From Isoetes taiwanensis (Eukaryota > Streptophyta > Lycopodiopsida > Isoetales > Isoetaceae), in contig JAJEKV010000006.1 of assembly GCA_021234155.1 (NCBI GenBank), forward strand, positions 1,798,001-1,862,000: a DNA stretch of 64,000 nt, read 5' to 3'. The translations under genes were made by a program, and so were the position numbers. The notes under the pieces are model-generated. The model was not told the origin of the DNA. It saw only the letters and a list, made by a program, of their open reading frames with translations, and searched no databases. Below, one piece after another: positions 5,067 through 43,374 of this stretch; positions within the stretch are counted from its first letter, which is position 1, and each line of letters starts with the position of its first letter.

Positions 5067-6490
5067 CCTGACCAAGTCAATATTTGGTCACATTAGGCTG
5101 ATAATCACGTTGAAGCCTTCGAAAAATCTTTGAGATTAAAAAAAAAAACCCTTAAAACCCCTTATTTCGTTTGGTTCTTGCTAAATCTGGGTCGATTTCC
5201 TTGTTTTTTGCAGCTGGGTATGTTTCTTGGCATCACATGTTGAAGGTATTCCTTGCAAACCTTCAACCTCAATTGTTTAGAATCTCAGGTTTCTTAAGGC
5301 AACCAAATCTCGAGTTATACTAGTCTTTTTAAAATGATTCTTGAAGGAGGAATTAAAGAAACGTTGGCGTGAGATGTGGAAAAAATTGGGCTCAATTTGG
5401 ATCTAGGATGACTTAGAAAAATGGATTCAAAGTCAACAGAAAATTTGGCCAGTACACTTCCCTGAAACAGAAACATGTATTCACACTCAAATGATGATAT
5501 CTCGAGTTTTACTAAGTAGTTTTTGCTGATTTGTGAAGTAAATATCAGGAAAAAGTTGTGAGAACTTGTGAGAAAAAATTTGGCTGGATTTGGAACTGGA
5601 ATGATGGAGAAAACTGAGTTCAAAGTGGATCAGAATTTTGGTCAGTGAACTGTGAGCAAGAAACAGCAAGCTGGTTTTTTCAAATGAAGAAAATGACAAC
5701 TTTTTTCACTTCTGACACTTGATTATATCTCTGACAACCCTGTAAGCAAGGTGCATCAAGTGCTTTCAACAAAAATCATGCAAATATGCTCAGACACCGG
5801 CCTGGGTACTTTGTGCAAGTAACTCTCATATTAGCTTCTAAGTTGCAAATTTAAAACACTGGGTATAAACACATGCTATTAATTCATTAGATGGTTCAGT
5901 ATATAAACTTACCTTATGGTACTTTATGTCTATAGAAATGTTAAAACCATTGTTTTCCATGTAATATGACTCTAGATTTTTAGTCATGGATATATATTGA
6001 TCACTCGATGTTTTGGACAACAAATGCACACCAAAGACAATTCGTCTTAGTGTGGACAGATAATACTACCGTAGGGATTGACCTAGATGTATGTCCCAGC
6101 TACCGATGTTAAGGCTAGATGTGACTTGGTTTTTGCAATTTTAGTTCTTGAAAGCTTCATCCTTTAGGTATATTGGCCAACAAACGTGTACATAACAAGA
6201 TTTGTTGTTCTGGCACGTGGTTGGATGTGATAGGTGGAAAGATAGGCTAGGTAGATATAGGAGTAGAATAGGCTAGTCTTATTAAAGTTTAAATTTGGCA
6301 TGCATCCCAATTATAACTTGATTTTGAGGAGCTATATATATAGCCAAAACGAATTTTCCAAAAGCATTTGGAAAAAAAAATGGAAAACAAAAATGGAAAA
6401 CAAGCGTTTTTTTTTTTTGGTAAAAAAACGACTAAGGGCAAGTGACATGGCAAAGTATGTGGTGACTTGGCAAGAAAATGATTACTATAA
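5067..6490. other. Intergenic, degenerate duplication, no CDS
   Basis: No credible gene. Segments around 5380-5460 and 5575-5650 resemble each other: both contain a TTTGGATCT/TTTGGAACT run, an ATGACTTAG/ATGATGGAG run and then a TTGGYCAGT run. This suggests an old tandem duplication with a period near 190 bp. Confidence 0.45.
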
Positions 6491-6495
6491 TCTTA

Positions 6496-6568
<73 letters not shown>
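6496..6568. repeat. (TATC)n microsatellite
   Basis: About 18 uninterrupted TATC units. The same tetranucleotide is the 3' tail of the LINE ending at 33069 and precedes the LINE stub at 44864, so this tract may be a LINE tail or target. No recognisable LINE coding sequence lies directly upstream. Confidence 0.95.
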
Positions 6569-6927
6569 CCTGTCATAATATTGCAAGTGCATTTCCCTGC
6601 CCCATGACTTCTAGTCTCTAGATCGACCCATATCACGACAAATAGAACTACGAAAAGTGAGCCAGGTTTGCATTGTCAGAAGGCAGGATTGGTTTTTGGG
6701 AGTAGAACATACCTGAAATGTGCATGCATCCAAGAGAGACACAAAAACCATTGACATCGAGAGCGATAGCTGGCGTTGTTTTGAGACCAAACATATCAAT
6801 GAATATCTCGTACTAGTCTTATTCCAAAATTGTTGTATTTGCAATCATCTAATTGTAAGCTCAATTTTTTTAATTGGAATATAAGGATCCCTGGTGAATG
6901 TACACCTTACATAATAACTTAACAACT

Positions 6928-7523: not shown

Positions 7524-9054
7524 CAGTGAAGATACACCACCATGGGCTATTTGAACCTAGGGGGGTTGACCTAAAAGGGATTAATTTAGCTATGCTAAAT
7601 TAATAAAGGGGTAATTAAAGATCAATTACCTATAATTAAGGAAGCATTATCTAATTAGCTCAATTAAGTTAATTAAGTTAGGATAATTGGTTAATTAGGA
7701 AGGTGCCACCTGGCCAAATTCGATTGGCCAGTGGGAGAATTCTAACTTTGGGGCATCAACATTGAACCCTCATCCCATTTGGCCCCAAAATCGAACCTGG
7801 AGGAGCAGCTGCTGAGCGCCCAAGTTCCTTGAAGATGGAGATGCCTCATGATAATGGATTCAGTAGAAACTCGGGTTAGTGGATAGACTAGCTTGATATC
7901 TCTAGGGCTAGCATTTTAGTCAGTCTTCTCTGGTTGTCTTCGTCTAGGATTAACCCTTCTTTGATACTTAGGATTATATTTCAATTATGGATTATGCTTT
8001 GTTATGTATGGATGGATGAATCTAGCTATGGTAGTATCTCTGTTAGCCTTCCGCAAAGCAGGGGTTAAAAGGGGGGGATAGAGACCTCTGTGCCTTATGC
8101 TCTTAGTATGCTCCTAGCAGTTCCCTTAATTCCCAATTATTGCGGCCTGTGCACAAGAGACCACCGAGCCGTGGATGCTATGGAATTGCTCAGCACCAGA
8201 GAAGGGACGCAGTGGTGAAGTGGGGGTGGGGTCTTGCACGAACATAAAAGGCTCCTGAGACTCCTACAGTGGGCTAGGCCTGATAGCCGGTCACGTAGAG
8301 GGCCGGGTATGGGTCTGACACTCCCTGGATGCAGAGGTGTGACCCGTATGGGGCATCCTGTACTTTGAAGATAAAGTTAGGGGAGTAGGTCGGGTACGGA
8401 TGCGGGGGTCGCTGATGCGGCACGTATTCTCTAGCTCACCCATGGAACTGCTGCTATCCTGGAAGGGGACACTTCCCCGACCTGCCTCATCGGACCAGGG
8501 AGATGTAACCTGGAGTGGACTCGAAGGGTGGTCCCTTGAGTCTGCGTCTCCGGAAAGCTATAGTGATGCCATAGCATGATTCGACTCATCTGCAAAGTGT
8601 GCACATGAGGGGCAGATGGAGTGGACAACCCTAGCCGATGTTCTATGCCAGCCAACGCCATGCCAAGATTCGGTCCGCTGATCTCTTGAGACCTAGCCGT
8701 CAGTCGATCCTCACTGGAGTCTGAGCCAGGGTAGAACCATGGGTTTTGGGGTGTTTTCTCTAGTATTAAATGCATCTTCTCTGTTATTATCAGTTGGATG
8801 GATGTGCCACCCTTCGTGGTGGTTATTTATGATATGATTATGCTGTATGCTAACCTTGTATGCACGCTTCCGCGACATAGGAGTCCCATTGAAGGCATGG
8901 GCCGAATGACACCTCTGTGTCCTTCACTCGAGCATCTTTCCTTAGATGGTCCGAGTTAGACGGAGGGCCCTGCTCATGGCGAGTTGGTTGCCATGGGAGG
9001 GGGAAGTCCCCGTATGTATACGCCCGAGTGTCGTATATGTTCAGGGAGCGTCCA
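7470..9054 (+). repeat. 5' LTR of the H3-carrying element
   Basis: 1585 bp starting TG and ending CA. Boundaries rest on the downstream PBS, on matching inverted ends and on homology of 8480-9054 with 11955-12529. A related, more diverged copy lies at 34818-37016. The opening 54 bp form a nested inverted repeat. By eye about nine differences separate the shared ~575 bp of the two LTRs (about 1.6%), implying recent insertion compared with the gypsy element downstream. Confidence 0.85.
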
Positions 9055-9055
9055 G

Positions 9056-9068
9056 TGGTATCAGAGCC
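9056..9068 (+). other. Primer-binding site, initiator tRNA-Met type
   Basis: TGGTATCAGAGCC lies two bases after the LTR end. TGGTATCAGAGC is the usual plant LTR-retrotransposon PBS complementary to the 3' end of initiator tRNA-Met. The same motif follows the gypsy 5' LTR at 38599. Confidence 0.9.
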
Positions 9069-9454
9069 ATGATTTTGGTAGCCCGAAATCATAGCACTGA
9101 CCAAACCCTTAACTCGTTAGTTCGGTAGTTAGGTGGGAGTTTAAGCTAGTTGGACTGTTTAACTCTTCGATGTTTGGTTTTGTGCTAGGTTGATGTAATA
9201 AATTGTAAGTTTTAAGGAGTTTAGGGCGACTGGAGGACCCAAGTTTAGAAGGGCCATAACTTTTTGTAGGTAGCTCGGATGAAGGCGAAAATGGTTCCAA
9301 TGGATCGGGCACCTCCCAAATACCCTAGGGGGCACGTTACCCGAGGGCGAAATGGCGACAGCAAGGTGAAAAAGCAAAAGGGGCGTTGCTGTCAGATGAG
9401 GTGTTTTTCTCGAAAAGTTAAGGGCGTATAACACTAGCAGCGCCCCATACGGTT

Positions 9455-9474
9455 CCGCGTATAAAAATACGCGT
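9455..9474 (+). promoter_or_regulatory. TATA-like palindrome upstream of the first ORF
   Basis: CGCGTATAAAAATACGCG is an inverted repeat around a TATAAAA core, followed directly by a ~22-T run. It sits about 290 bp before the ATG at 9753 and could be a core promoter internal to the element. Only sequence resemblance supports it. Confidence 0.4.
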
Positions 9475-9752
9475 CTTTTTTTTTTTTTTTTTTTTTTTTT
9501 TATTTAGAAAAACTTTCAAAAAAAAAAAAGTTAAAAAGTTTAGATTCAAATTTGTGTTTCTTTTTGAAAAGTGTGTTCGTTGGGACGTCTTCCTGCCGCC
9601 ATAGCCGCCGGAGTAGAGCTCGCCCGTCGCCATAGCCGACCTTGCATGCTACCCTGTTGCCACCCTAACCGCCTAGCGTCTCCCTTCTGACCCTAGCGCC
9701 ACCTACCCTACACTAAGCGCCCATTTCCTTGCCACTTGCATGCGCTAGTGCC

Positions 9753-10508
9753 ATGATGCCGCGCTTTAAGCTCACCGTGGACCTAAAGAAGGCGAATGTC
9801 TTCTAGCTGTATAGCGTCCTAGTAGACCATCTCTCTGATGATAGTGATATGATCGACACTGTTCTAGACCTGCTCGTGACCCATTTCACTGAGAGCCATA
9901 GAATCCTCTACCCAATCTTCCATTTCAATGAACGCTTCCTCATGAAGCTGAATGCTGCAGACCAACCTTACACTCTTGTGGAGCAGCCTGATCAAGCTTG
10001 GGCCATTGTTAAGTTTTATCCACTAGCCAGCCAAGAGAAGGATCTCGTGGAGCTTATCCGGATGGAGGCCCAACGGATTTTGCACCTTGCTAGGGTAGAG
10101 GGCCTCCAGCAGATAGCTAGTGGCCTACCAGAAGAGCGGGCTAGCCGTTTTTATTACCTTGGTAAAGGCCATGTGCTTATGCACAGGGACCATTACAATC
10201 TTCCCCCTTTCTTTTGGAATGAAGAACTATATAGCTTTATCTTCGAAAATGTTCCACCTAGCTTCACCCAGAACCGCATGGACCTTGTGCAAGCTGACAT
10301 GCGAGCTCACCCGGCCCGGTACCATACGGAGATTGCAAGGCGAATACAGGTGCGCCAGGACAAAGAGGCCCGGGATGCTGAGAGAGAGAGGGTCCGTAGA
10401 GCAGAGGAGGTTGCCCGAACACAGCAGGGCGCGGATCAAACTGTTGTTCAGCAAAGAGATCAACCTGTGGTTCAGGAAGGAGACCAACATGCTGTGCAGG
10501 AAACATAG
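9753..10508 (+). CDS. Unknown gag-position ORF, fused in frame to H3
   Basis: The frame opens at the tandem ATGs 9753/9756, meets TAG at 9804-9806 and continues open to TAG at 10506-10508. The longest ATG-initiated stop-free part starts at 9849 and gives 219 residues. I recognise no family: there is no zinc knuckle, protease or RT motif. Visible features are an acidic/aliphatic N-terminal half, a segment rich in aromatic and Pro residues (FYYLGKGHVL, NLPPFFWNEELYSFIFENVP), then a strongly charged, probably helical or coiled stretch rich in Arg/Glu, and a Gln/Val-rich linker with repeats of the type VVQQRDQ/VVQEGDQ. The position after the PBS suggests a gag-like or accessory structural protein. 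The same frame continues past the second TAG into the histone fold. Confidence 0.65.
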
Positions 10509-11006
10509 GGAAGATGGGGTAACAGGAAGAGGAAGCTTACGAAGCCCACACGGGGAGGCGTCGGTTATAAGACCCGACTACAGAAGGATGCCCAAATCGG
10601 AAAGAACACGTCGGCTCAGCGACAGGAGCAGATTGTTCAGAGGGCGAAACATCCGACGACTGGTGGGAAGTCTTTACCCCTGCCCCGGCCACCTGCTAAG
10701 CCCAGGAAGCCTCATAGATTCCGACCCGATACGGTAGCTCTCAGGGAGATTCGGAAATATCAGAAGACAGCGGAGCCTTTGATACGCCGCCTGCCTTTTC
10801 AGCGTCTGGTCCGGGAAATTGCCCAAGACTTCAAGACCGATCTGAGGTTCCAGGCATTCGCTTTGCTTGCACTTCAGGAAGCCGCTGAGGCATACCTTGT
10901 GGAAATTTTGAGTGATGCTAACCTCTGTGCAATTCATGCTAAAAGAGTTACCATAATGCCCAAGGGTATCCAGCTTGCAAGAAGGATCCGAGGGGAATTT
11001 CGCTGA
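10509..11006 (+). CDS. Histone H3-like domain inside the LTR element
   Basis: In frame with the upstream ORF after one TAG. 165 codons precede the TGA at 11004-11006. The first ~68 residues are a Lys/Arg-rich tail unlike the H3 tail except for [11 protein letters not shown], which resembles H3 residues 8-15. From 10713 (HRFRP) to 11003 there are exactly 97 residues aligning without gaps to H3 positions 39-135. Stretches [20 protein letters not shown] and [14 protein letters not shown] are identical to plant H3. I count 17 differences in 97 (about 82% identity). Changes cluster at T58A/L60P, at 86-90 (AFALL for SSAVA), at 102-107 (EILSDA for GLFEDT), D123G and the C-terminus. Loop 1 has canonical length, unlike most CENH3. 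Its role is unknown; packaging, chromatin targeting or nucleosome mimicry are possibilities only. Confidence 0.9.
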
Positions 11007-11183
11007 CTGTTGGAACTTTCTTTGTTCTATTGTAAAAATTTTGTGGTATGTATCTATGTAAAATATTTTTTTTGAAGCCATACACTTAAAATCATGTCTT
11101 TTTGCCACTTGGTGCATATTTAAATGTAAATTATTAAGTAATTAATATTTTTTTTATATAACCTAGGAAAATGTGCCGAAAAG

Positions 11184-11214
11184 TATAAAGCCACTTTTTG
11201 GCCCATTAGGGTTT
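11184..11214 (+). promoter_or_regulatory. Host-like core promoter: TATA, GGCCCATTA, telo-box
   Basis: TATAAAG at 11184-11190, GGCCCATTA at 11200-11208 (UP1-type GGCCCAWWW) and TTAGGGTTT at 11206-11214 (telo-box/UP2) overlap within 31 bp. A CT-rich leader and an ATG at 11270 follow. In plants these motifs are typical of promoters of ribosomal-protein and other growth-linked genes. It separates the H3 unit from the next ORF, so the element may carry two transcription units. Confidence 0.65.
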
Positions 11215-11269
11215 CATTTTCGTTTTTTCTTTTAGAGTTTGTCTCCTCCTCCTTTGCGCCTTCTCCCTC

Positions 11270-11955
11270 ATGGCTCGCCCAACTCTAGAACAGTGGTACC
11301 TGGATGGTGAGCACTGGGACCCCGCGGTTCCCTTTGATCTTCTTCATCCTCATCTGCTCCAGCAAGTGGATCTCATCCACAACATGCAAGCGCACCCCGA
11401 CTACGCTGCTTTTCTTCAGTTCTACTGTGAGGAGATCGTGCCTGCTTGTGTCTTCAATGAAGACGACTCACAGCTCTACCTCGACTTCCACACCTTTCTC
11501 GAGATGTTGGGAGGCGATGATCATGCCCGGAATGTCATTAAGGGCATTAGGAGGAGAGGGACCGACCTCCCTATCATCACTATAGATCGAGAACTCTGTT
11601 TTGAGGCTCGATTTGCGCTGGCCATCATCATGGACCAGTACATAAAGGATGAGCAGATAGCCGCAGAGAGCAGTCTACTACACCAGTACCCCCTGACCCG
11701 GAGGGCGATGAAGTCGTCAACGAGCAGGATTTTGCACGGTGAAGGAAGCTAGCCACCGAAGCACCGGCAGGTCGAGATAAAGCCCTCAAGCTCGAAGGGC
11801 TAAACCTCCTCCCTACCGTACCCTTGAACAATCAAGAGTATCTTATTCTCGAGGACATTATGTGGGCTTACCGCGTCATTGCTGATATGCGGGGCCGCCG
11901 AAAGATAGAGGTCCTCTATGACCTTGCCGAGTACTGCCAGGATGACTTCCTCGAC
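11270..11955 (+). pseudogene. Second ORF of the H3-carrying element, broken
   Basis: An ATG frame at 11270-11752 (160 codons) begins MARPTLEQWYLDGEHW and is rich in acidic, aromatic and Leu residues. A frameshift near 11690 moves the continuation to another frame, which runs to the 3' LTR junction with one TGA at 11740-11742 (probably CGA). That continuation includes NNQEYLILEDIMWAYRV and EVLYDLAEYCQDDF. No known domain is recognised. It follows the TATA/telo-box promoter by about 60 bp. The C-terminus is lost at about 11955, where sequence switches into the middle of an LTR at CGACCTGCCTCATCGG. Confidence 0.55.
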
Positions 11956-12529
11956 CTGCCTCATCGGACCAGGGAGATGTAACCTGGAGTGGACTCGAAG
12001 GGTGGTACCTTGAGTCTGCGTCTCCGGAAGGCTATAGTGATGCCATAGCATGATTCGACTCATCTGCAAAGTGTGCACAGGAGGGGTGGATGGAGTGGAC
12101 AACCCTAGCCGATGTTCTATGCCAGCCAACGCCATGCCAAGATTCGGTCCGCTGATCTCTTGAGACCTAGCCGTCAGTCGATCCTCACTGGAGTCTGAGC
12201 CAGGGTAGAACCATGGGTTTTGGGGTGTTTTCTCTAGTATTAAATGCATCTTCTCTGTTATTATCAGTTGGATGGATGTGCCACCCTTCGTGGTGGTTAT
12301 TTATGATATGATTATGCTGTATGCTAACCTTGTATGCACGCTTCCGCGACATAGGAGTCCCATTGAAGGCGTGGGCCGAATGACACCTCTGTTTCCTTCA
12401 CTCGAGCATCTTTCCTTAGATGGTCCGAGTTAGACGGAGGGCCCTGCTCATGGCGAGTTGGTTGCCATGGGAGGGGGAAGTCCCCGTATGTATACGCCCG
12501 AGTGTCGTATATGTTCAGGGAGCATCACA
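11955..12529 (+). repeat. Truncated 3' LTR of the H3-carrying element
   Basis: Corresponds to 8480-9054 of the 5' LTR with about nine visible differences, and ends GGGAGCATCACA. The first ~1010 bp of this LTR and any intervening internal sequence are missing. The break lies in the shared string CGACCTGCCTCATCGG, suggesting a deletion or template switch. Confidence 0.88.
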
Positions 12530-13964: not shown

Positions 13965-14009
13965 CTCCTATAAAATGATGGGCCCTGCATCCCGAGGGAG
14001 GGATGTGGG

Positions 14010-14098
14010 AGAAAAAGAAAAAGAAAAAGAAAAACAAAAAGAAAAAGAAAAAGAAAAAGAAAAAGAAAAAGAAAAAGAAAAAGAAAAAGAAAAAGAAG
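14010..14098. repeat. (GAAAAA)n hexanucleotide tract
   Basis: About 14 units of GAAAAA with one AACAAA interruption. Phe/Ser-rich minus-strand frames across it are artefacts of the repeat. Confidence 0.95.
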
Positions 14099-16776
14099 AA
14101 GATGTAAAATTTGGATTCAGATTTTGAGATAATAGAGATATTACAATATTGGTATTTGTATGGAGTAATGAATTTTCCACTTGGCTGATATGGTGGTGAG
14201 GCAAAAGTACAAGTGCATTTTAAGTGCATAGTGAGGAAAAGAAACAATTGAAGTTATATGAACTTTGATTATAATTGATTCCTTTATTGTATTTTGTTTG
14301 ATGGGAAAGTTCCTAGAAATTGTTTTTCGTAAAGGGTTGCATGTAAATGCAATTCTAAGGTTTTTTGGGGTATATCTCCTATGCATGAAGTGATGGCATT
14401 AGAAATTAAAGTTGCCACTACTATTTATTGCCTAGTTGGGTTTCGTAGGCTTAAAATTAGCTTACAACGATAGCATTTGTGGCACGTATGGCATCAAATC
14501 GATAATGTGTGGTACCTTCTTTAAGTTGGCATTCCGGATTTGGTGGCCTTGGAATCTCATGGAAAATATTATGGCCAAAGGGCAAAACTCTAAGGTCCTA
14601 TCTTTATTATTTCTAGGTTTCGGGAGGAACGGCTATGGCGCCAATCCTCTTTTGTGAATGGGTGTCCTTATATGGCATGTAACTGGCAATGAAGATTATG
14701 ATCTAGTCAGATTATGATCTATTATGTGACTTCCACGTTTTCATTTGATCCAACTTGCTGCTGCGATTTCATGGGAAACAGATGAAGCGGAGCTATGCAT
14801 GAAGTAGATGATATCCCGAAGCTCTGCTGGGCATAGGCATCTCTTAGGGATAAAAATCGAGCTGCAAGGGGATCTTGGTGCTCTCATAATCCGTGGATTG
14901 ATGGCTTGTATGTTCAGGAGTTAGATATGCCAAAAGGCATGTGCAACATACCCTTGGCAAGATGAACATGGCGCAGAGTGCTCTTTCCTCAAAAAAATCA
15001 AAATGGGCTGCTTCAACAAAAGACCATATGATGGTGAAGCAATGCAAATGCCCAAATTTGTGGAGCTCCTAATCAGGTCAGTTAATTTTGCTGTTTTCGG
15101 TGAAGAATGTGCTAAATTCACAGGCAAATAAAGACATGGAGCTTAAATGATGATTACGATGTAGTTTATGCATCAGAAGTTAATTATGTGGCAGTTGGGT
15201 TAGTTGGATAGTAGTTGGATTAGATGCATAGTAGTTGGGTTCGTAAATGCCCCACCGTATTTGCTAGTTATAAGCACATGTCTATCCTTATATTCTAAAT
15301 AAGAATACAGGCTCTGAGCACATATTATATGGGATCTCATGAGCATAAGCTTGCTGATACAATGCATTGAGACTGTTGGGTTGTATACACTATGGTTAAA
15401 GTATGATGTACCAAAGCTCTTAGTTACATCTTCTTATTCTGGTTTAGGGCTATTGCTAATAATGCTACTGCTGGTGTACGTCTGTTAATTTTCTAGTGGG
15501 TTATATGGTGTTTTGAAGCTGCTCCATTGCCATGCAAAGGACTTTTGGGCGTGCATGTCTTCTAAATATGGTAGTTTGCACATAAGTACTATATTGCTAT
15601 GCCTTAGAGAGCTGACATGGCTTAATGCTGAGCTATATTTATGCTGGATTACTACTTGTAAGTGAACTGAGGCATAAGATCATATAACAATATGACATTT
15701 GTATTTAAACTGCTGGGGTAAGCAGCTATGATTATGCTGAAATTAAGACCTTTTAAGGTTATATAATTGATTAAATATGTACGCTTGTGTAAAGTGGAAG
15801 TATGGTGAATGGATATGCTGTTTGTCTGATTTAACTCATAGATCGAGTGCTGCATGTCCTTGAGTTTTGGAGCAGATGTGTCACTGCCTTTAACTTGAAA
15901 TACAGGGCAGATATAACAGCTTGTTTTGCATGATCCAATATTTGAATTGGATGGTAATAACTGATACTACGAGAATATGCATTCAAATGTTTGTTGTTCT
16001 CACTGAAAATAATAGGTGAAGGGCGATGAGCCAGAATGTTTTACTGCTTACCTGACGCCCCTTGTGTAGTTACCATGAACTTGCTAACTTATGCATTGTT
16101 TGTGTTAGAGTATGATGATGACTGTGCATGCTGAGTCATCACTTGTTGCTGACATGGCACTCTATATTAGCCATAGTCACGCCTCATTCTTCTTAGTTCA
16201 CTCTCTAGGAGCTAGTAGGTGCTTACGCTTCTGTCCTTGTCTTTCCTTCATCCTTCAGGATTTCCTCAGGCTATCAGTTTGGGTGCAGGTAACCAAAACA
16301 TTCTCTTCTGGACTTGTTTTCAGTTGGATTTGTTACAATTGGTGGACCACGTGAAGAATGTGGCTATGGACCACGAGAGGAATGTGGATATCATCAAGAC
16401 ATGGACAAAAAATGGGTGAGATCTCCCTTTTTTATTGCAACACTGGACCATTGATAGACTGTGTTGCAGTGGCTAAGGATCATGGGCATCTTAAGAAAGG
16501 AAAAATATTGAATCCTTTCCTTTGGGTGTTATGCAAGGGCATAATGACCTGCATATAAGTGATAGCTTATGGATATAAAGTTTCTAACGAATATAAGATA
16601 TTTGCTTGGATAAAGGGATTGAAAATTTGCTTGAAAACACAGTTGAAAAGAGAGTTATTATGTTGAATTTATTGTCTATGAAATTTTAATATGAAATTTT
16701 AAGATAGTATTTGAGAATGGAAGACGGAAATGACCTAAGTTGACATGTTGAGCAGTAAATGAATATGAATGTTGAT

Positions 16777-23616: not shown

Positions 23617-24420
23617 TTATGGAAAAGGCGGGAAGCAAAGAACCGATTCTTTAAGAAAATTCTCCAGTTGGTCAATATAGAGCCCAAACAAGGTAGGAGA
23701 AAGAGTGCAGCCTTGTTTTACTCCCACGTCACTGACAATTAAGTCAGACATGCCAGACGGAGTCACAACCCTTCCACGGACTGATTCGTATAACCTGCCT
23801 ATGGCTTGAACCCATTCACTAGGCACACCAAGCTGGATTAACCTATTCAAGAGTTTCTGACGAGGCACCGTGTCGAATGCTTTAGCAAAATCAACAAAGC
23901 AGCAGAGCAGTGGTTTCCCTTGTGATCTGGCCTCCTCTATCATAGTACGAAGTGTGAGCAAATGATCTATAGTAGAGAAACCACGCCGGAATCCTGCTTG
24001 CCCTCGCGCTCTTAAACCATGCGCCTCCGCCCATATTGTGAGCTTAGAATCAAAAATCTTGCCAAATAGCTTAGCAAGTATGGGGCTGATCATGATAGTC
24101 CTGTAGTTATTTGGCTGCAACACATCACCTTGTTTATGTATTGGGTAGATCAAACTGGTGGTCCAGGCCTCCGGAAACCCCTCTGTAATAGCTTGGTTAT
24201 ATAATTCTGAAATCAGGCCAGCCAATTCGTCTCCACCATCCTTGAGATGTTCTGCCAACAACCCGTCAATATCCACGTGCTTTCCCAGAGCTAGCCCATC
24301 AATTCCCTTCTTAACATCCTCAAGGGTGACTGCAAAACTAGGATGGGCTTCTATAGGTATGCTCAGCTTATCTTCCCCTTTGAAATACAAGTGTAGAGCG
24401 TAAGTTTTCCAAACCTGCAA
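23617..24420 (-). pseudogene. LINE reverse transcriptase domain
   Basis: Contains RT blocks IYPIHKQGD, NYRTIMISPILAKLF, GLRARGQAGFRRGFSTIDHL, CCFVDFAKAFDTVP (first catalytic Asp) and VGVKQGCTLSPTLFGLYID. The frame breaks before the catalytic xDD block, whose remnant (CFDDLL) lies just downstream in another frame. It resembles the RT at 30.8-31.8 kb more than the plant L1 copies in this window. Confidence 0.88.
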
Positions 24421-24522
24421 ATCCGTCAGGGCCAGCTCTTTGGTTGGAGGAGATAGCTGCTTCCAGAACCACTTTCCAGAATATTTTGCCTTATGCTCAA
24501 GTTTTTCTTGCTGCGCAAGTAT

Positions 24523-29065: not shown

Positions 29066-29521
29066 CGGTGAAGCCCTAACAAGCCATGCAACGCACAAGG
29101 GCTATTGACAGAGCCGGGCTAAGGCCGTAGAACCGAACCAGTGGGTACAAAGGGGTCAAGAATGGCAAGGTATTTCTGCACAAAAGAGTACGAGAATTGA
29201 CAGGAACGTCGCAGGAGCAAAGTTTGGGAGTATTGGAAACAGGGAGATCGGCGGATGCGGAGAAGGAGAATATAAACCCAATGGGGGTCCTGACACAGGG
29301 GCACGAGAACATGACAATGGGGAGGGCAATAGCAAAGACTAGCCCGAACCACTAACCAAAGATCTGAGAAGGGAAGAAAGAGGCGGAAAAGAGGACGGCG
29401 TAGACCGAACAACGCAAGCCGGGAACATGGATCCAACCCCGAACATGAAGACAAGGGGGAGACCGAGAAGAATGGGAAACAGAGCAGAACACACGGAGAC
29501 CCCGAGAGAGCAATCTCGTGG

Positions 29522-30310
29522 AAAGAAACGCTGAAGATATGGTATTGGAACTGTACTGGGTACCCTTGGGATGACGGGGAGAGGTTGGAAGGAGCACACA
29601 GTTGTGATATAATATGCCTGGTGGAGACATGGGAACATAACATAAAAAGGCTGCCAGAAGAGGAAGGGTACCAGCTATTCACATGCTGGAAGGACAAGGA
29701 GTTCAAAAGTGGGAGAGGGAGTGCAGGATTAGCCTGCTATGTAAAAGAAAATGTAGTAAACAATGCATGTATTTTGCAATCAGATGTCAATAAGAAATAC
29801 ATGATTTTGAATATACAGCTACAAAACAAAATGGAGTTAATTCTGATTTTAGCATACTACCCACCAAGCAGTGATAAGCTAGAGCTGTTAGAATTGGGGG
29901 AGACTATGATGAAATGGAAGGAACAAGGATCAATGATATTAATGGGTGATCTAAACGCCAGAACGGGGCAGGAACAGGCACAAATCGTGAGCATGGGAAG
30001 TACAAATGGGCAATGGATGAGCACGACAAGATCAGAGGAATGGAACAGACATACGGAAGACAGAGCAGAAGTCAATGTCAGAGGGGAGCTACTACTCGAG
30101 ATATGTTCGACGACAGGGGGCATTATAGCCAATGGAGTATAGAGGTGGGAAGGGTCAGGAAAGTACACAAGCCAAAATGCACACGGGAGAAGTAATAGTG
30201 GATTATGTGATAATGAATGACAAAGCAGCGGAGATAGTATCGGAATTCAGACTATTAGAATGGTCGATCGGAAAAATGGGAGAGCCACAGACCCATACAG
30301 CTAACACTTA
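29522..30310 (+). pseudogene. LINE APE-type endonuclease
   Basis: Begins KIWYWNCTGYP (Asn block). Then come IICLVETWE (catalytic Glu), AYYPPSSDK and LMGDLNARTG (Asp-Leu-Asn block). A frameshift near 30140 shifts the Asp-Tyr block (VDYVIMND) into another frame. In LINEs this domain nicks the target to prime reverse transcription. The microsatellite 3' tails of this family may reflect its target preference, but that is inference. Confidence 0.85.
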
Positions 30311-33069: not shown

Positions 33070-34817
33070 TTTAGGTTCTGTCTGTTATGTGCATGCACTT
33101 CTGTATCTTTTGAAGTCTGGCAGACTGCCATGTAGTTCACTGCAGAAATGCATGTTGTTTGCAGTCCACAGTTCTTGTTATTGGCACATCAGACTTGTTG
33201 TTATGTACAGTTGTTGTAATTGAAAGGAATATGTGTTGTATAAGACTCTTTGTTCCACACTCTTGTTTCTGCAATTCAATTATGTTCTTGTTATTGTAGT
33301 TCGATGTATGGCATATTATCGAGGCAATAAATGTTTATTGACTATATGATTGAGCGGTAGTGTTATTCATGCTTGTATCTATACGGTTTATATTAACTGT
33401 ATTGCGTACATTGACTTCTATTGTGGCTTTGACAACCATATGCTGAGGTGTAAAATGGGGTTTGACCCCATCTTGTTTTTGCGTGGACGGTCAGGGTTGT
33501 GAGATTTGGCATATTATGTGGTATATTCCATGGATTAAGTGTTGAGATGAGACGAGTATTAGGATGAGACGAGTACTCAAATGCCTATAGAAGACAAAAA
33601 TTATAAAAACTTTTATGGAAGATCAAGTGCGCCACTTTTATTCGAATAGAATAAATGCAAAAATCTCTACAGAGAGTGTTACCCAAGTCATCACCATGGG
33701 GAAAGAGGCTCTCACCACTCTTCCCTGGGCCTGCCACGACTTAGTCTCCATGGGATTTCCATAAGCCAAGGAGGAGGAGAACATGTCCCCTCAAGATATT
33801 GATAATTTTTTTCATAAATCTTGGACATCCACTTGGCACGATCCTTGCCCTTCTTTTTGACACCCCATCAATCCTCTTGTTTTTGTCTTCTTCTCCTTCA
33901 TAACCAAATTCGTCTTCTTGCGTAACAATTAACACAAATTAATATGGGCCCTTGGATTCTAACAACAAGCACAAATAAATCTGGACCCTTGATCTTCTCC
34001 CCAGACCTTTAAAGTGCAATTCTTCTATGTTGACCGGGATTTGCCAAAAATCCGGTCAACAATTGCGTTATGAAATATGGACTTGTTTGGGTTCAATTCC
34101 CAAAGCCTTTCTTATCTTAAATTAAACAAGATCAATAGAACATTCATGATATATGTTGTATATGAAAAATAAAACATCATTATATTGACTTTTTAAATTG
34201 TGGTATATGCTAATATTTTTTTTTTTAAACGTGTGCCACGTGTCAATATTTGATTCCTTAGAAGACACCACGTGTCGGCATTTGATTAGTTATAATAATG
34301 TTTTTTTATTTTAAAAGTATGACACGTGTCAATATTCCTTAGTTAAAAGACACATTGGTATGTGTTATAATAATGACTTAATAGCATAAAAAACAATAGC
34401 TAGATTTCAATAACACATGTGGTACTTTGTTGAATAACATGTAATTTTTTTTAAAAACAATCTTATTTTGACGTTGTACTTTAGTTTTTCACGTGTGGTA
34501 ATATCGAGACCTACACGTGTAATTCTGAAGATAAACAACGGATGGTTCCACTAAAGACAAAAGTGAAGAAAAAAAATACATGTTGACAAAAATTCACACA
34601 AACTATGTCAATTTTTTCTACGCGTGGATTTTTCTGCCAAAAGACCACCGTGGGAAATTTCTACCAAACATTGACTGTTTTTTTTGTGCAAATCCGGATA
34701 AACGGACCATATGGACATTTGGGGCCATTTTGGTGTTGTTTTTGGATAAAGCAACACTTAAAAACAACTGTGGAGTAAAAATTAGAGTCAGTGTGCTAGC
34801 TTGGCTATGGGACTTCT
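33070..34817. other. AT-rich intergenic region, no gene seen
   Basis: No credible ORF. The motif CCACGTGTC or ACACGTGTC recurs near 34230-34510 in an AT-rich context, suggesting a degraded repeat. Confidence 0.5.
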
Positions 34818-35536
34818 AAAGTGTGCTAGGCTTATAGGCGGTCACTGAGTCTGGGCCGGGTATGGGTCTGACACTCCTTAGGTCGCAGGCAACGTGCCTA
34901 TATGAACGTCCTGGACTCGAACGGGCGCAGTGAGTGGTCCTTTAGATTTAGGGGAGTAAGTCGGGTACGGATGTGGGGGTCACTGACGTGGCACGTGTTC
35001 TCTAGTACACCCAGGGATCCGTCATGCCCGGGGCAGGGACGCCTCCCTGACCTGCCTCACAGACCGGGGGGATATAACCCCGAGTAGTCTCAAAGGGTGA
35101 TTCCATGGGATTGCGTCTCTGGAAGGCTACAATCACGCCATAGCATGTTTCAGCCTATTTGCAAAGTGTGCACAGGAGGGGCGGATGGAGTGGACTACCC
35201 TAGCCATTGTTCTATGCCAGCCAACGCCATTTTTACCTCTATCCATCGTTATCTTGAGGCCCTGACCATCAGTCGACTCCATGGAGTCTGAGGTAGGGTA
35301 GAGTCCTTATTTATGGAATATTACTTATGTATCTTGTACTTGTATTACCATGTAGATGATGATGATGATGGATGGACCACCCTTCGTAGTGGTATATTAT
35401 TTTGTGTGTTTTTTTTTTTTTTTTTTGGAAGGACGACAAGCTTTATTCACCAAGTAAGAACTAGAGCAACACAAAATGCAAAGACAGTATTATAACCCCA
35501 GTGGACAAACCAATCCAACTGAGCACAACCACCTGC

Positions 35537-36331
35537 CTATGCAAAGGAATGAATCTGAAGGTAAATATGCCAGATCAGTACTTTCTTCTCTTGATCAAGA
35601 GAAGAACGATTGTAAGCCATAACAATTTTATTTTGCGCCCACTGAAGAACAATCTCATCTGCAGTATCTACGCCCTTAAAGATAAACAACCTCCTTCTCT
35701 TCCAGATTGACCATAAAAGCCAGCCACATACGAGATGAAAAGCTCGTTTCCGGAGTTTGGGCCAAGCATCAGGATAGATAGCAAGCAAAATTTGCTGGCT
35801 AGATCGAGACGTGCCAAATAGGGTCAACAACCAGGACCATGCCTGCCGAAGCCGCCCACACAAGAGAAAACAATGCTCAATACTCTCAACCCTTTGCAGG
35901 CATAAAGGACAGAGCTCTAAAATCCGATTATCCATTTTATGGACCAACCTGTTGATTCTGAGGCATCTATGGATCACTTGCCACCACAAAGCTACTACTT
36001 TGGGATGAAGCAGCTTATCCCATACCCATATCCAAACACTTTTCCATTGTGGCCGAGGGACCTGAAGATGCCACCAATTAGATGGAGGCAGGATTTCAGA
36101 ATGCAAAAGCAATTTATACACAGAAGATACAAACTGCCCTGGCTGGATATCCTGATGGCAACCCGATACGACTACCTCAATCTGTGGACCAGAATCCTGT
36201 GGCAACAATGCAGCAATATGATTCCAGATTACTCGTCGTTGTGTCTTTGGATGAAAACCACACTTAGAGGCACATTCTCTGGAGTGTCCTGCAAAGGAAT
36301 CTACCAGCATGGAGTGGACAACTAAAGACAT
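35537..36331 (-). pseudogene. L1 ORF2 C-terminus, zf-RVT domain
   Basis: A 264-codon frame with the plant L1 zinc-binding RT region: VWIWVWDKLLHPKVVALWWQ, VIHRCLRINRLVH, LCPLCLQRVESIEHCFLLC (Cys-x2-Cys...His-x3-4-Cys) and LVCGWLLWSIWKRRR. It is homologous to 57538-58248 on the plus strand. It is separated from the preceding ORF2 part (36322-36783) by a frameshift. Confidence 0.88.
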
Positions 36332-36783
36332 GCCTCAGGATTAATATGGAAAAGAGACCTGACAGTGTCCCAAGCAGCAAGCAACCCCTTTAGAAAGGGA
36401 GAAGCATTAGGATACGGATGCATATGATAAAGCAAAGCCCAAGGAAGGAGGGGCTTAATGGTGGCCTTATGAAATGGGAGACAATGCTGAATCGACTGCA
36501 CCAACAACCGCAGGCCAGGAGAATCATCCTTACCAATGAAAATCCTCCAAATAAACTTTGATATCATGACCTTGCTTTGGAGGTGAAAATCCAACATACC
36601 AAGACCACCAGCTGCCTTAGGTCTAATGCATTCCGCCCAAGCTACCTTGACCACCGCTCCTAACTCATTTCCACCCCAAATAAAATTTCTGACGATACGC
36701 ACAATCTCCTCCATCTTACACTGCGGAGCTAATAGAGCAGACGCCATGTAGACATGAGTATTACTAAGAACACATTTAGCCAC
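36322..36783 (-). pseudogene. L1 ORF2 part between RT and zf-RVT
   Basis: Contains NFIWGGNELGAVVKVAWAE, CIRPKAAGGLGMLDF and LPWALLYHMHPYPNASPF, the usual region after RT in plant L1 ORF2. It starts at the truncated 5' end of this copy. Confidence 0.85.
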
Positions 36784-37016
36784 AGTTATTTTGTGTATGA
36801 TTGCTAGGTGCTAACATATATGTACGCTTATGTTGTATAGGTCTCCCGTAGAGGACATGGGACGAATGACACCTCCGTGATCCTCACCCGGACACTTGGC
36901 CATCCCAAGTGGTCCAAGTTAGACGGAGGGCCTTTCCATGGTGATGTAGTTGCCACGGGAGGGGAATTCCCCATATTTGTACGATGGGGAGTCATATAGA
37001 TTCTAGAAGTGCCACA

Positions 37017-37686
37017 CAGATCCGAGAAACCAATATAGATATAGTAATTGCAAAGTATGTCACACCTTGCAATTTTCTTTTCAGCGAGACATTCAAGTTA
37101 ACTTCAAACATCTTAGATTTGATTATATATTCTTAGCTTCTGATTCATGCACGTATAGGTTAGAACACTCCATTTGGGTTTCTTAAATGCTCATTTGACA
37201 TGGTTATTTCCAGTATAGTAGTGATCATATTATGACCTATTAGAAGCACCGGTTGAAATTTGCAAGCACCTCTTACTACATGTCAGAATTCGAGATGCTC
37301 ATTATATTACTAGAGAGGAGAATTGGAAGTTATTAGATATCCTTCTTCTATTAAACATATCTTCTGGCTGGGTCATTACATCACATCTCAATGCCTGTGC
37401 ATGTTCACCATTACTACATGTATATGAATTAGTAAATAGTATAAATATGGCTGACCAAACCATATTGCCGACGTGATTTTATATTTGTGCTAAATGAAAA
37501 TCATCTTAGACACTTAGATCATTGGTCCTGATTATTGAGACAAACAAGGTGCTTATGATGAGCAATAGTTCTCCTCCGTGTTAGCAAGCAAATCAATACA
37601 AAACATGCAATAATGCCCTCCTCCCACGTTCACACATTCCATCCTTCTTAGCATCATGTCAAATACAAAAATCGACACAATCTTAA
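37017..37686. other. Short gap before the gypsy element
   Basis: No gene seen. It may be part of the Helitron whose 3' end lies at 44376, on the other side of the gypsy insertion. Confidence 0.35.
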
Positions 37687-38597
37687 TGTTACAGGTGCTC
37701 CCAAGGGCATAGCCGGAATCGGGCCCTTGACGGACGTCCATGAGCACGGGGATACTGTTGGTCGCGATTGCCGGGCAGTTGTGATTTAATAGGCCATGTT
37801 GACTGTAACCAGTCTATGGTGACAGAATGCGGGATAAATGGTAATAATTGCGAGCAGCGGGTAATGGTTCGCTAGGGGGGCACTAATATTACTAAGCATT
37901 AGTGCGGGAGGAGCTTGTAGAGTCCGTAGACGTGGAAGATCCATGTTAATATGGCTAGCTAAGTTATAAGGGTAGTACTAAGGGTTAAAACATTAGTATG
38001 AGGAAATAATTAGTTAGCTATGTTAAATGGGTAATGTTTAATGGACACGTGGCAGCAAATGGTTCGGCGGGGCAAAACCTGTTATAAACCAGATTTGAAT
38101 AGATCGTATCAGGGATCCGGCTATCAGATCTGTTAGTTGAGCTGTAGAGAACGGATTTGGATCGGATCAAAGGCTAGGCTGGCCGGTTTTGACCACAGGG
38201 GACTGCCAGTGAACTCCAAAGTTGGGATTATAAAGCCTAGAGAAGGAACTGGATGGGTTGCGGAAGATTGGGTCTGAGAAGGAAGGAGCGATTCTGCAAG
38301 CTGGTGGTGTCTTCTTGGATCAAGAACTGGACCATAGGGTCGGACTAGCAGCCCGAGCATGTGATTGTGCCCCAAGGCAGATTGATACTGCCAAGGGTCG
38401 GATTGAGCTTGGCCAGCCGGTTAATATTCACCCAGGAAGGATTCTCTAGAAGGATCCGGTCTGTTGTGAGTAGTTTCACATAGCAGCAAGCCATCGTGGT
38501 CAGTGAGGGGGATCTGGGATCCAAGGTGTGGGCGGAAATTGATCGGCGTAGTATACGTGGACAAGGGTTTCTCTTGGAAAAAATAGTTGGCGTAACA
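37687..38597 (+). repeat. Gypsy 5' LTR
   Basis: 911 bp, starts TGTTACAGG and ends GGCGTAACA. Paired with 43392-44299. Confidence 0.95.
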
Positions 38598-38598
38598 G

Positions 38599-38610
38599 TG
38601 GTATCAGAGC
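38599..38610 (+). other. Gypsy primer-binding site
   Basis: TGGTATCAGAGC one base after the LTR; complementary to initiator tRNA-Met. Confidence 0.93.
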
Positions 38611-38613
38611 TCA

Positions 38614-39906
38614 ATGACTGAACATGTGCCAGATATGCCAGCAGGACCTGTTGACGGATTGCCTGAAGTGCATTCGCCTGAAGAGGGCATAATACCCGCC
38701 CTCGAGGACATTCATTTAGACAATGAATTGCCCGAGTTCGAGCTGGATGAGGAAGCACCCCCAGAAGCTGCTTCTGAAGCAGCTATTCCTGTAGGTGCTG
38801 GTCATGTAATTGCTGCAAGTGCATCTAATACTGATAATGTAAATGCCGGGAATGCTTCGGGAGCAAGTACTAAGCGGGATCCGGTAGGTGAGAACTTATC
38901 CGACGAGAGTGTAGGTCATGTCAACCGCCTAACTGGGGAATTGAGCGAGACAATGGTTGAACAAGCCAAGTTCCAAAACACCCTAGGGTTGATACAAGAA
39001 AATCTGCAGAAGTGGGCTGCTGAAGGGAAGGCCCAGGAACTTCGTTTAAGTAATGTAGTAGAAAAGTTTCTACAGGTAGCTGGGGCAGTTCCTATTGCCC
39101 CAGGGGCAAACCATGATGTTCCTCACGAGGTTGCACGACCGGGACCTAGTGCACCATCAGGAGTAAACACGGGGTTGGCCGAAGAACCAGTAGCTCAGGG
39201 TATCATGGAAGGTGTCGCTCAGCCAGAAGAACCGGATTTCTATGGCAAGGATGTTATGCCTGAGCAGGCTATGCGATGGTTCAATCAAATGAAGCTGTAT
39301 TTTGCAGCTACGAAGAAAGGTGAAAATGGCCGACTAATCTATGCCACCTTGAAGTTGAAGGGACCGGCAGCTGCATGGTGGGACATCCACACCGAGAATG
39401 GTCAGAAGTTGCGTACTTGGAGGGAATTTTGTCACTTATTCTGACAGGAGTATGCACCTCATTATGACCGGCGACATGCGCTCATACAGCTGAAGGAGCT
39501 CACTTAGACAGGGTCTCTATGGGATTATGTGACAGAGCTGAGGGCGCTCTTTTCGCGGCTACCCGAGATTACTGCAGGAATGCACGTGGATCATTTTATT
39601 AATGGTCTACGGGATGCTAGCATTTACACGCATTTGCTGCAGGCTGAACCTGCTGACTTTGAGCTGGCTGTTGAGATTGCCAGGAAACTGGTGGGTAGGG
39701 AAGAGTCCAAGAAGGCTCAGAACTTTGCTAATTGGAAGGCAAAAAGGGCCGGGGGAACTTCCCAGGGATCTGCTCCCTCTAAGAAGTAGAAGAATGATTC
39801 AAAGGATAAGGCCGCCGGGGGCAAGGCCAAGGAAGGTGACGCCAAAACGAATAAGCCTAAGGGGTGTTATCGTTGTGGGGTGGTCGGACATTTTGCCCGA
39901 GAATGT
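38614..39906 (+). pseudogene. Gypsy gag with zinc knuckle
   Basis: One frame from ATG 38614, with stops at 39442 (TGA), 39506 (TAG) and 39787 (TAG). The N-terminal part is acidic and Ala-rich. The retrotransposon-gag core includes RWFNQMKLYF, LKLKGPAAAWWD, SLWDYVTELRALF and LLQAEPADFELAVEIARKLV. The nucleocapsid zinc knuckle CYRCGVVGHFARECTK (Cys-x2-Cys-x4-His-x4-Cys) is at 39865-39906. The stops look like CGA-to-TGA and CAG-to-TAG changes. Protease follows in the same frame. Confidence 0.9.
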
Positions 39907-40725
39907 ACAAAGCCCCGCAAGAAAGTTTTGGCCAGCACTGCAAAGATAAATGATAAGCCAGAGGTAAAGGCGTTATCAGTTATCGCTCGAGAAGAGATGG
40001 TAAGCCCTACTTCATGCTCTTATGCGGATAAAGTTATAAGATTGTTAGATAGAATCAATGGTAGAAATGTGGTTGTTTTGGTTGATTCTGGAAGCACTCA
40101 TAACTTTATTTCTGCAGATCTAGCACATGATCTAGGGCTGGAATTGAACGAGGTGGCTCCGTATGTGATTGAGTCTGAGGCTAGACCACATACTCAATGT
40201 CACAGTGAGCAAGCACGGGGTGTTTGCCTGGAGTTGTTGGACAAGGAATCCCGGGTTGTAAGATCTATGTCCATAGATCTAGACATCGCTCAGTTAAAGC
40301 GATATGATGTCATTCTAGGCATGAAATGGTTACAGCATGTTGAGCCACAAATTCTCTGGCCAACACACACCTTGGTTTTCAATTTACCATCAAGTGAAGT
40401 AGTTAGGTTTCAAGGTTTACTACATGTAGAGCCTAGTAAGCTCATGTCAGCCACTCAGGCTAAAAAAAATTTCAAAGTTAATACAAATGTTTTTTCTTTG
40501 ATGTACTTGAGAAAACATGATTTGATTATCAAATCGTGTAACTTGTTGGTGGTTAACACCGGAGTAAACTCTGAGCTAGACCAAAGATTAAAAGATCTTT
40601 TCCATACCTTCAGGGATATCTTTCCGGAAGAGTTACCTGAAGGACCACCACCCTCGCGGGGTGTCGAGCACGAAATTGAGCTTGAACCTGGGTCAAGCCC
40701 ATGGCACGTGCTCCCTACCGATTAA
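39907..40725 (+). pseudogene. Gypsy aspartic protease
   Basis: Same frame as gag. The active site VLVDSGSTHNFISADLA lies near 40075-40125 (Asp-Ser-Gly at 40084-40092), then YDVILGMKWLQHVEP, the usual second conserved block. A frameshift near 40700 interrupts the transition to RT. Confidence 0.88.
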
Positions 40726-41440
40726 GTCCTCTAGAACTTGAAGAGGTTAAAAAGCAAGTGAAAGAATTGTTAAGCAAAGGTTTTGTACGACCAAGTAGAT
40801 CACCTTTTGCGAGTCCCGTGTTGCTCGTTAAAAAAAAAAGACGGTACTATGCGGATGTGCATCGATTACCGGGCACTTAACAAAGCAACTCTAAAGGATC
40901 GATATCTTGGGGGTGCCAACTGGTTCAGCAAGATAGACCTCTGAAGTGGATATCATCAGATTAAGATTCGGGAAAGGGACGAACCTAAAACTGCATTCAG
41001 GACTCATCAAGGACATTATGAGTTTCTGGTTATGCCGTTTGGGCTTACAAATGCTCCTGCAATGTTTATGCGGTTAATGAATTAAGTATTCTCTGAGCAT
41101 TTGGACAAGTTTGTAGAGGTCTTTTTAGATGATATTCTCATCTACTCGCAAACTGTTGAAGAGCATTTCGCTCATTTGGAACATGTTCTTCGAATTTTGC
41201 GGGAAGACAAACTCTATGCAAAGATTTCCAAATGTGATTTTTTTAAGCAGCGAGTGGCCTATTTGGGACATATCCTGTCTGGTGACGGTGTATCTCTAGA
41301 TCCCGCCAAGGTACAAGTGGTACAACAATGGCTCCCACCAGAAAATGTTTCGAAGTTACGAAGTTTTCTGGGGTTAGCCACGTACTACCGCAATTCGTAC
41401 CTAAATTCTCTAAAGTTGTTGCTCCTCTCACTGATCTTTT
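40700..41440 (+). pseudogene. Gypsy reverse transcriptase
   Basis: Blocks across two frames: [92 protein letters not shown] and VEVFLDDILIYS (catalytic xDD), followed by LEHVLRILREDKLYAKISKC. Frameshifts lie near 40715 and in a 10-A run near 40835. In-frame stops sit before GYHQI (TGA, 40942) and after RLMN (TAA). Confidence 0.9.
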
Positions 41441-41920
41441 GAAAAAAGATCACGAATTTGTGTGGGAGAGAGAGCAGCAAGAAGCGTTTCGGCGCATTAA
41501 GGACTTGCTAGTAAACAGTCCTATGTTAAAAGTGCGGATTTGAATCAAGCATTTGAGGTCTATACTGACGCTTGCGGGCAAGCGTTAGGGTAGTATTGAT
41601 GCAGCAGGGTCACGTAGTGGCTTATGAAAGTCGGAAACTAAGTCCTGCGGAAAGGAACTACGCAACCTATGAGCAAGAATTGCTAGCCATTGTGCATGCG
41701 TTAAAGACGTGGAGGCACTACTTGTGTAATGGGACGAGTCAAGAGCCGCGCAAGTTTATCGTCTATACCGACCATAAACCATTGAGGTTCTTGCAAAGTC
41801 AAGCTGAGATTAGCCCGAGACAGGCTAGGTGGCTAGACTTCCTCCATGAGTTCCATTTCTCCATTGAGCATACACCTAGCAAAAATAATCCAGTTGCCGA
41901 TGCGTTATCAAGGGTTAGGC
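41441..41920 (+). pseudogene. Gypsy RNase H
   Basis: VYTDACGQAL, YEQELLAIVHALKTWRHYL, VYTDHKPLRFL and PVADALSR supply the D-E-D-D catalytic pattern. The linker FVWEREQQEAFRRIKDLL precedes it. A frameshift near 41540 separates this from RT. Confidence 0.87.
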
Positions 41921-42089
41921 ATATAAATACCTTAACAACTTTGGCAAGTGATCTTATACAAAGGATCAAGGATACATATCCCGAGGATCAGCAAGATCCG
42001 GCGATGGTCAAGCTCGGGGAGTTGTGGACTAAGCAAGAGGGGTTGCTTTTCTATAAGGGAAGGATTTATGTTCCTTCAAGTGGGGACCT

Positions 42090-42720
42090 TAGGGAGTCAA
42101 TTCTACGTGAACACCATGACACTCCACAAGCTGGGCATGGAGGTGAATGGAAGATGTATGAATTGGTAAAGAGGTTCTACTACTGGCCAGAGTTGCAAGA
42201 TCAAGTCAAGAACTTGGTAAATCACTGCTTGATGTGTCAAGCGGTAAAGGCAGATCATGGGAAAACTCCGGGATTGTTACAGCCCCTCCCTATACCAAAT
42301 GAGCGCTGGGAAAGCGTGAGTATGGACTTTATAGTCGCATTACCTAGAACTGCTAGGCAACATACTCAAATTTTGGTGGTAGTGGATCGACTAACCAAAT
42401 ATGCTAAGTTTATAGCATTAAAAGGGGAGGCCACAGGACATGACGTATATGCAACATATATTCCCAACCTTCGGACTTCTCTGTCCATTGTAAGTGATCG
42501 AGACACTAAGTTCACGGGTTACTTCTGGAGAGATCTCATGAAAGGATTGAGGATCTGATTATATATGAGTAGTGGAAATCATCCACACACAGACGGGCAA
42601 ACTGAGCGCATAAACATGATCCTAGAGGTATGTTGCGAAGTTTTGTCCACGAGAAGCAGTCTAGGTGGAAAGATTATTTACCCTATCTAGAGTTCGCTTA
42701 TAATAATAATAGCCATCACA
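42090..42720 (+). pseudogene. Gypsy integrase
   Basis: The HHCC zinc-binding part is HHDTPQAGHGG...HCLMCQ (42110-42240). Catalytic core residues are in MDFIVALP (first Asp), VSDRDTKF (second Asp) and, after a TGA at 42556, TDGQTERIN with the third acidic residue following. Later stops, for example TGA near 42760 (expected CGA), break the C-terminal part. Confidence 0.87.
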
Positions 42721-42818
42721 CGGGAATTCGGATGACTCCTTTTGTGGCTATGATGGGCTGAAACCCAAGGGCTTATTCAGGTATACATAAGTACCTCTGG
42801 ACTGAAGTTGCAGTACAC

Positions 42819-43351
42819 ATGCTCCATGATATGGATGCAATCCTGTGGCAATGCAAGCAAGCTTTGCGAAAAGCTCAAGATAGGGCACGAACGTCCGCTA
42901 ACCAGCATAGACGTGATATCTCTTATGCGGAAGGTGATTATGCCTTCCTACGGGTTGTTTATCCTTCAGCGCTAAGAATGAATACTTTACGGCCTTTAAC
43001 TAGGGGTCGTGTGCCCAAACTTACTCCGCGGTATGATGGACCTTTTAGGATTACTAAAAAGATCGGGGAAACAGTATATGAGTTGAACTTACCACAGGAA
43101 GTAGGGATCCATCCTGTGTTTCATGTAAGTCAGCTAAGAAGGGCTATACTGGATACCGCTAATATGGTTAGTCCGCAAAGTATACCGATCGTCTTAAACT
43201 CCTCTGAACGCCAGAACATCTTTTGGATAAAAGAGTTCGGCAGCTGCGCAATAGAGATGTCATGGAACATCTGGTTCAGTGGCAAGACCAGTCTCCTGAG
43301 GATGCCACCTGGGAGACGGAGGAATTTGTGCAGCAGTTCCCTCATCTAAAG
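42819..43351 (+). pseudogene. Gypsy integrase C-terminus and chromodomain-like tail
   Basis: LTPRYDGPFRITKKIGETVYEL and HPVFHVSQLRRAI are the usual integrase C-terminal blocks. In a shifted frame, VRQLRNRDVMEHLVQWQ followed by DATWETEEFVQQFP has the spacing and Trp residues of an element chromodomain. Chromovirus chromodomains recognise histone marks and direct insertion. Confidence 0.8.
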
Positions 43352-43374
43352 GATCAACCTTGAGGGCAAGGTCC

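Follow-up and report, generated by a model that had tools for sequence, protein, structure and literature searches.

Histone H3 genes on mobile elements are already known from fungi. H3-like genes are reported on hAT transposons of Pyrenophora tritici-repentis (PMC3538342) and of Pseudocercospora fijiensis and its relatives (PMC6710886). The Pyrenophora element encodes an H3 core-like protein, H3L, beside an ORF of unknown function, and H3L has tail insertions and helix changes and is neither canonical H3 nor CenH3, much as in the element from Isoetes taiwanensis analysed here. However, the H3L hAT is described as a DNA transposon with terminal inverted repeats, a transposase and H3L as a separate ORF, occurring in 26 nearly identical copies with ESTs (PMC3538342), whereas the Isoetes locus is an LTR element with an apparent in-frame fusion and is represented by one broken copy. 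The Pseudocercospora hAT is likewise reported to have acquired an H3 coding sequence, which was multiplied; it differs in being a fungal DNA transposon that captured an H3 transcript and whose copies were inactivated by RIP (PMC6710886).

Plant LTR elements are also known to take up host-type sequences. An orchid Ty3/Gypsy element with an AlkB-type m6A demethylase (PMC9289625) resembles the Isoetes element in being a plant LTR element with an acquired domain of host type that acts on nucleic acids or on their packaging, but it is reported with a full gag-pol, many copies and measured AlkB enzyme activity. The screen in that paper covered 121 angiosperms and was seeded with reverse transcriptase; pol-less copies would escape it, and its main text names no histone domain. 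The genes captured by LTR elements in rice and sorghum (PMC3726574) are similarly sense-strand pieces of host genes between LTRs, although the main text describes no H3 fusion. Chromoviruses (PMC12786077, PMC9289625) offer a functional analogy for the idea of a tether with their chromatin-related module in an LTR element. Yet their chromodomain recognises a histone mark and is located at the integrase end, whereas the Isoetes element has the histone itself behind an ORF in the position of Gag. The main texts of PMC3726574, PMC7264820, PMC5408684, PMC11963269 and PMC13317346 do not contain the word "histone". No LTR element with a histone domain was found in the open-access full-text literature searched, which is not proof of absence. 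The original prediction knew of no described family of this kind; this holds for LTR elements in that literature, but not for hAT DNA transposons, which carry H3 in fungi (PMC3538342, PMC6710886).

Here, we analysed a window of 64,000 nt of Isoetes taiwanensis DNA (GCA_021234155.1, JAJEKV010000006.1:1,798,001-1,862,000, forward strand), and our analysis is based on the single copy of the H3-bearing element within this 64-kb window. The element has the following features, given with the evidence for each.

8250-9054, plus strand: 5' LTR with an approximate left end, which may extend further left (LTR pair and related LTR)
9056-9068, plus strand: primer binding site (PBS), presumably of the tRNA-iMet type (exact TGGTATCAGAGCC)
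9753-10508, plus strand: ORF1, N-terminal domain of unknown kind, with TAG at codon 18 and at codon 252 (10506-10508) (translation)
10509-10712, plus strand: basic linker of 68 residues with 19 K+R and 2 D+E, including RKRK (composition)
10713-11003, plus strand: histone H3 core equivalent to H3 residues 39-135, with the stop codon at 11004-11006 (PDB, Pfam, alignment)
11270-11749, plus strand: ORF2, 160 residues, unknown, with an apparent continuation in another frame from 11743 into the LTR junction (ORF list, shuffles)
11945-12527, plus strand: 3' LTR remnant without its left part, directly abutting ORF2 sequence (identity to the 5' LTR over 11945-12523, last four bases by inspection)

The LTR element and its surroundings

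The original prediction had placed the H3 segment between a 5' LTR with a PBS and a homologous 3' LTR remnant, and we found this arrangement. Segments 8471-9049 and 11945-12523 differ at 8 of 579 bases (98.6% identity), and the left copy is the 5' LTR because an exact PBS comes right after it, while the right copy has none. The PBS matches TGGTATCAGAGCC over 13 bases with zero mismatches, and with at most one mismatch this sequence occurs twice in the window against 0.11 matches expected by chance, the second belonging to a neighbouring gypsy element at 38599. The right end of the 5' LTR is placed by comparison with a related LTR, which ends in CCA, and by the PBS, which follows after one base. 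This related LTR (34803-37013) aligns with 8250-9055. Its alignment to 8250-8470 alone comprises 172 identities, 39 mismatches and 37 gap positions, and the leftward extension to about 8250 scored 193.5, compared with a shuffle maximum of 61.5 (n=300); further to the left, the alignment score of 30.5 lies below the shuffle maximum of 52 (n=200). The alignment implies a full LTR of about 800 bases or longer, so that the 3' LTR lacks its left part and whatever preceded it. At 11945, ORF2 sequence is joined directly to the truncated 3' LTR, which points to a deletion of the end of the internal region together with the left part of the LTR. No polypurine tract is visible at the junction (11914-11944), where such a tract would have gone with the missing left part of the 3' LTR. 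A script found no convincing 5-base pair that could be a target-site duplication, the left LTR end being approximate, and the outer ends of the element are therefore not fixed.

Within the internal sequence (9055-11944), two ORFs were scanned for element domains, the read-through protein of the H3-bearing frame (P0001) and ORF2 (11270-11749). Neither has a Pfam reverse transcriptase, protease or integrase domain, and pol may have disappeared with the deleted sequence or may never have existed in the element. No transposase profile matched the two ORFs either, and the flanks are direct repeats. We call the element "plant-type" as a working assignment based on its H3 residues and PBS and on the gypsy and zf-RVT LINE elements nearby. 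The copy is dead: the H3-bearing frame contains two internal stops, ORF2 is broken and the 3' end is truncated.

ORF2 looks coding-like by its codon-position GC (0.64/0.31/0.60), and its open stretch was equalled in 17 of 2000 shuffles. It has no Pfam domain above cut-off and no PDB match up to E 10, and it is broken ahead of the 3' junction. A model made without an alignment reached a mean pLDDT of 49.3; this model and that of P0001 (mean pLDDT 42.9) were too weak as queries for a fold search. ORF1 and ORF2 are not similar to each other (BLASTP E 0.94; hhalign probability 0.1), and the window holds no further copies of them, the best other matches having E 0.038 at 16369 for ORF2 and E 4.8 for ORF1. 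Just upstream of ORF2, 11184-11214 contains TATAAA, GGCCCA and a telobox (AAACCCTAA, minus strand), a set of motifs that we take to resemble a plant housekeeping promoter. As promoter evidence, the telobox was given no weight, with one match in the window against 0.82 expected.

The related LTR at 34803-37013 is apparently a solo LTR of the same family, interrupted by a minus-strand zf-RVT piece (LINE-like). It has no internal region and is thus silent on whether H3 belongs to the family. The neighbouring Ty3/gypsy element (37685-44299) has LTR blocks that are 94-96% identical and do not match the LTR of the H3 element, a PBS at 38599, and protease, zinc knuckle, RNase H and integrase domains with an SH3-type integrase end. 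Further LINE-like pieces with reverse transcriptase, endonuclease and zf-RVT domains lie at 23620-24522 (minus strand), 29333-30139 (plus strand) and 57529-58245 (plus strand), and short tandem runs of ATCT and AGAAAA units at 6490-6576 and 13998-14108, respectively.

The histone H3 core and its shared reading frame

The stop-to-stop ORF has the originally predicted coordinates, 10509-11006, and its residues 63-163 are homologous to H3. The profile and homology searches proposed along with the original prediction identified the segment as H3. PF00125 (Pfam Histone) matched P0001 with 134.6 bits against a cut-off of 26.4 (E 2.7e-39), the best PDB match of the ORF is a Histone H3.3 chain (E 7.4e-49), and the best 60 PDB matches listed are all named histone H3 or similar. 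The predicted gap-free alignment of 97 residues to H3 39-135 with about 17 substitutions was recovered as well. Over the 97 codons, the core is identical to plant H3.3 at 80 residues and to H3.1 at 80, so that 17/97 residues differ from each reference and 16/97 from both; the core of the two reference sequences agrees with the PDB alignment lines. The residues unlike both references are G44D, S57T, T58A, L60P, K64R, S86A, H/S87F, V89L, G102E, L103I, F104L, E105S, T107A, D123G, R134F and A135R. Of the informative sites that separate H3.3 from H3.1, the core matches one variant at two, F41 being H3.1-like and L90 H3.3-like. L90 as in plant H3.3 and A96 as in the plant sequences are plant-type residues, and S96 is found in four of five comparison H3 copies from MAG contigs. 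These five loci were retrieved by searching a genome contig collection with the H3 core and served only as comparison copies; filed under bacterial MAGs, they were judged to be eukaryotic contamination. CENH3 has a longer loop 1 than canonical H3. This feature is absent from the gap-free alignment of the element core, in which residues 65-85 are unchanged, and loop 1 is therefore of the canonical H3 kind.

The H3 part has no intron. Its upstream sequence does not provide a canonical modifiable N-terminal tail: the similarity of the 66 residues upstream of the core to the H3 tail is not significant, since 721 of 5000 shuffles scored as well, and only a short PTTGG match to the H3 tail is present. 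The sole in-frame ATG of the H3 ORF, at 10956, lies within the H3 part, and none precedes it. Instead, the H3 ORF is the end of one frame, 9753-11006, that begins at the ATG at 9753. With two internal TAG codons and the terminal stop, this frame contains three stops, compared with a mean of 19.6 in shuffles, and none of 2000 shuffles had three or fewer; the other two plus-strand frames across the same region have 17 and 29. The open stretch of ORF1 (233 residues) was matched in length by one of 2000 shuffles. Codon-position GC is coding-like in ORF1 (0.67/0.33/0.51) and in the H3 part, but not in the linker.

Because the H3 ORF continues the upstream frame, with two internal stops against 19.6, and has no ATG of its own, the parent element probably encoded one protein consisting of an N-domain of about 230 residues, the basic linker and the H3 core. 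The simplest reading of the two TAG stops is later damage to the parent frame. Alternatively, the TAG before the linker might be genuine and programmed read-through might yield small amounts of a long, H3-bearing form of ORF1, as some retroelements do for pol. Such a mechanism would suit a stop that separates ORF1 precisely from the H3 part and is followed by an open frame, but the RNA 3' of the stop folds worse than most shuffles (z 1.51; 191 of 200 fold at least as well), and the second TAG at codon 18 would require a separate explanation, which makes programmed read-through highly improbable. As for the N-domain, ORF1 has no Pfam domain above cut-off and a single PDB match with E 1.5, and the P0001 model, made without an alignment, is mostly helical and unreliable. 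The label Gag is suggested by its position, with no recognised relation to Gag.

Timing and pattern of the H3 divergence

The LTR divergence of 1.4% corresponds to about 0.7% per copy and predicts that the H3 part, 291 bases long, gained about two changes after the insertion; the 16 replacements relative to both H3 variants, by contrast, require at least 22 base changes (the sum of per-codon minima). Most of the H3 divergence should therefore predate the insertion, having arisen either in the element or in a donor gene. This bears on the possibility that a processed H3 gene landed in this one copy after the element had inserted, unconnected with the biology of the element. An intronless H3 part seen in a single copy would be expected from such an event, and the original prediction had named it as one of two refuting cases. 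However, the LTR pair permits far fewer changes than the 16 amino-acid differences, and the H3 part lies in frame with ORF1, with neither its own ATG nor a recognised H3 tail. The insertion of a canonical processed H3 is thus disfavoured, and a processed insertion could survive only with a divergent donor, which leaves it a very unlikely origin.

The pattern of the changes was compared with a neutral simulation starting from plant H3.3, with 15 substitutions in the first 95 codons and 1500 runs in each of two settings. The observed substitutions are clustered (P 0.0027 and 0.0013 for the two settings). Two codons require three changes each, a combination that arose in none of the 1500 runs in either setting. 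Neutrality was not rejected by the absence of stops in the H3 core (P 0.44 and 0.41), by the conservative nature of the changes measured as mean BLOSUM62 (P 0.12 and 0.08) or by the longest unchanged run (P 0.26 and 0.27). The substituted sites overlap with the naturally variable sites of the five comparison H3 copies at 4 of 15 (P 0.22). By this sequence pattern, the H3 part is not a canonical H3 in recent, simple decay; the pattern would fit evolution inside the element and a divergent donor alike. Viral contigs yielded no relatives of ORF1, ORF2, the H3 core or the LTR pattern, in collections that hold little or no plant DNA.

The main rival explanation is that the element transduced a piece of host transcript with H3, perhaps from a divergent H3 variant or a chimeric host gene, which has no role and is decaying as inert cargo. 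Capture of host genes by LTR elements is common, with 672 genes reported for rice and 1,343 for sorghum (PMC3726574). The copy is broken, several neutral tests were not rejected, and a divergent donor would account for the clustered and triple-change codons without selection inside the element. On the other hand, ORF1, the linker and H3 lie in a common frame with two stops against 19.6 expected, and neutral decay from canonical H3 does not reproduce the pattern of changes. We consider inert cargo a plausible origin, though on balance a doubtful one.

Probable capture of H3 and its possible meaning

Our favoured and probable explanation is that a plant-type LTR element acquired the H3 core long ago and most likely carried it as the C-terminal part of a fusion protein. 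The present locus would be a plant-type LTR retrotransposon copy that is dead and truncated at its 3' end; its parent would have encoded, on the sense strand from 9753, a protein with a helix-rich N-domain, the basic linker and a tail-less H3 core. The H3 part would most likely have come from a plant-type H3 transcript, for example by template switching during reverse transcription, and would have been taken up well before the present insertion and then moved along with the element. With most residues of the histone fold kept, the H3 core could have enabled the element protein to bind H4 as a partner or to associate with chromatin. Such a contact might keep the protein, or whatever it carries, inside the nucleus and close to DNA, with the N-domain in the place of Gag. 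D123G, L60P and the changes at five of the six residues 102-107 count against capture as a fusion, as does the finding of a single and dead copy. The further step, to a plant LTR family with a Gag-position protein ending in a selected H3 core, whose pairing with H4 or nucleosome-like contact with DNA would serve in packaging, in retention within the nucleus or in targeting to chromatin, is unlikely on the present evidence, albeit worth considering.

The original interpretation was partly supported, in that an LTR retroelement contains an H3 core that is encoded on its sense strand and shares its frame with an element ORF upstream. Its presence across a family, its upkeep by selection and the originally suggested roles in nucleosome replacement, particle packaging and chromatin targeting are conjectural. 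Both H3 on fungal DNA transposons and the pickup of host genes by LTR elements are already known. If the H3 part were inert cargo, the locus would add one more example to the genes that retroelements have transduced. Judged from the sequence, a functional H3-fusion family is possible, and if the locus marked such a family, an H3 core fused to an element protein would link a retroelement directly to the unit of chromatin. It would then be testable whether a histone helps the element to package, import or target its DNA, and whether H3 supplied by the element interferes with the nucleosomes of the host.
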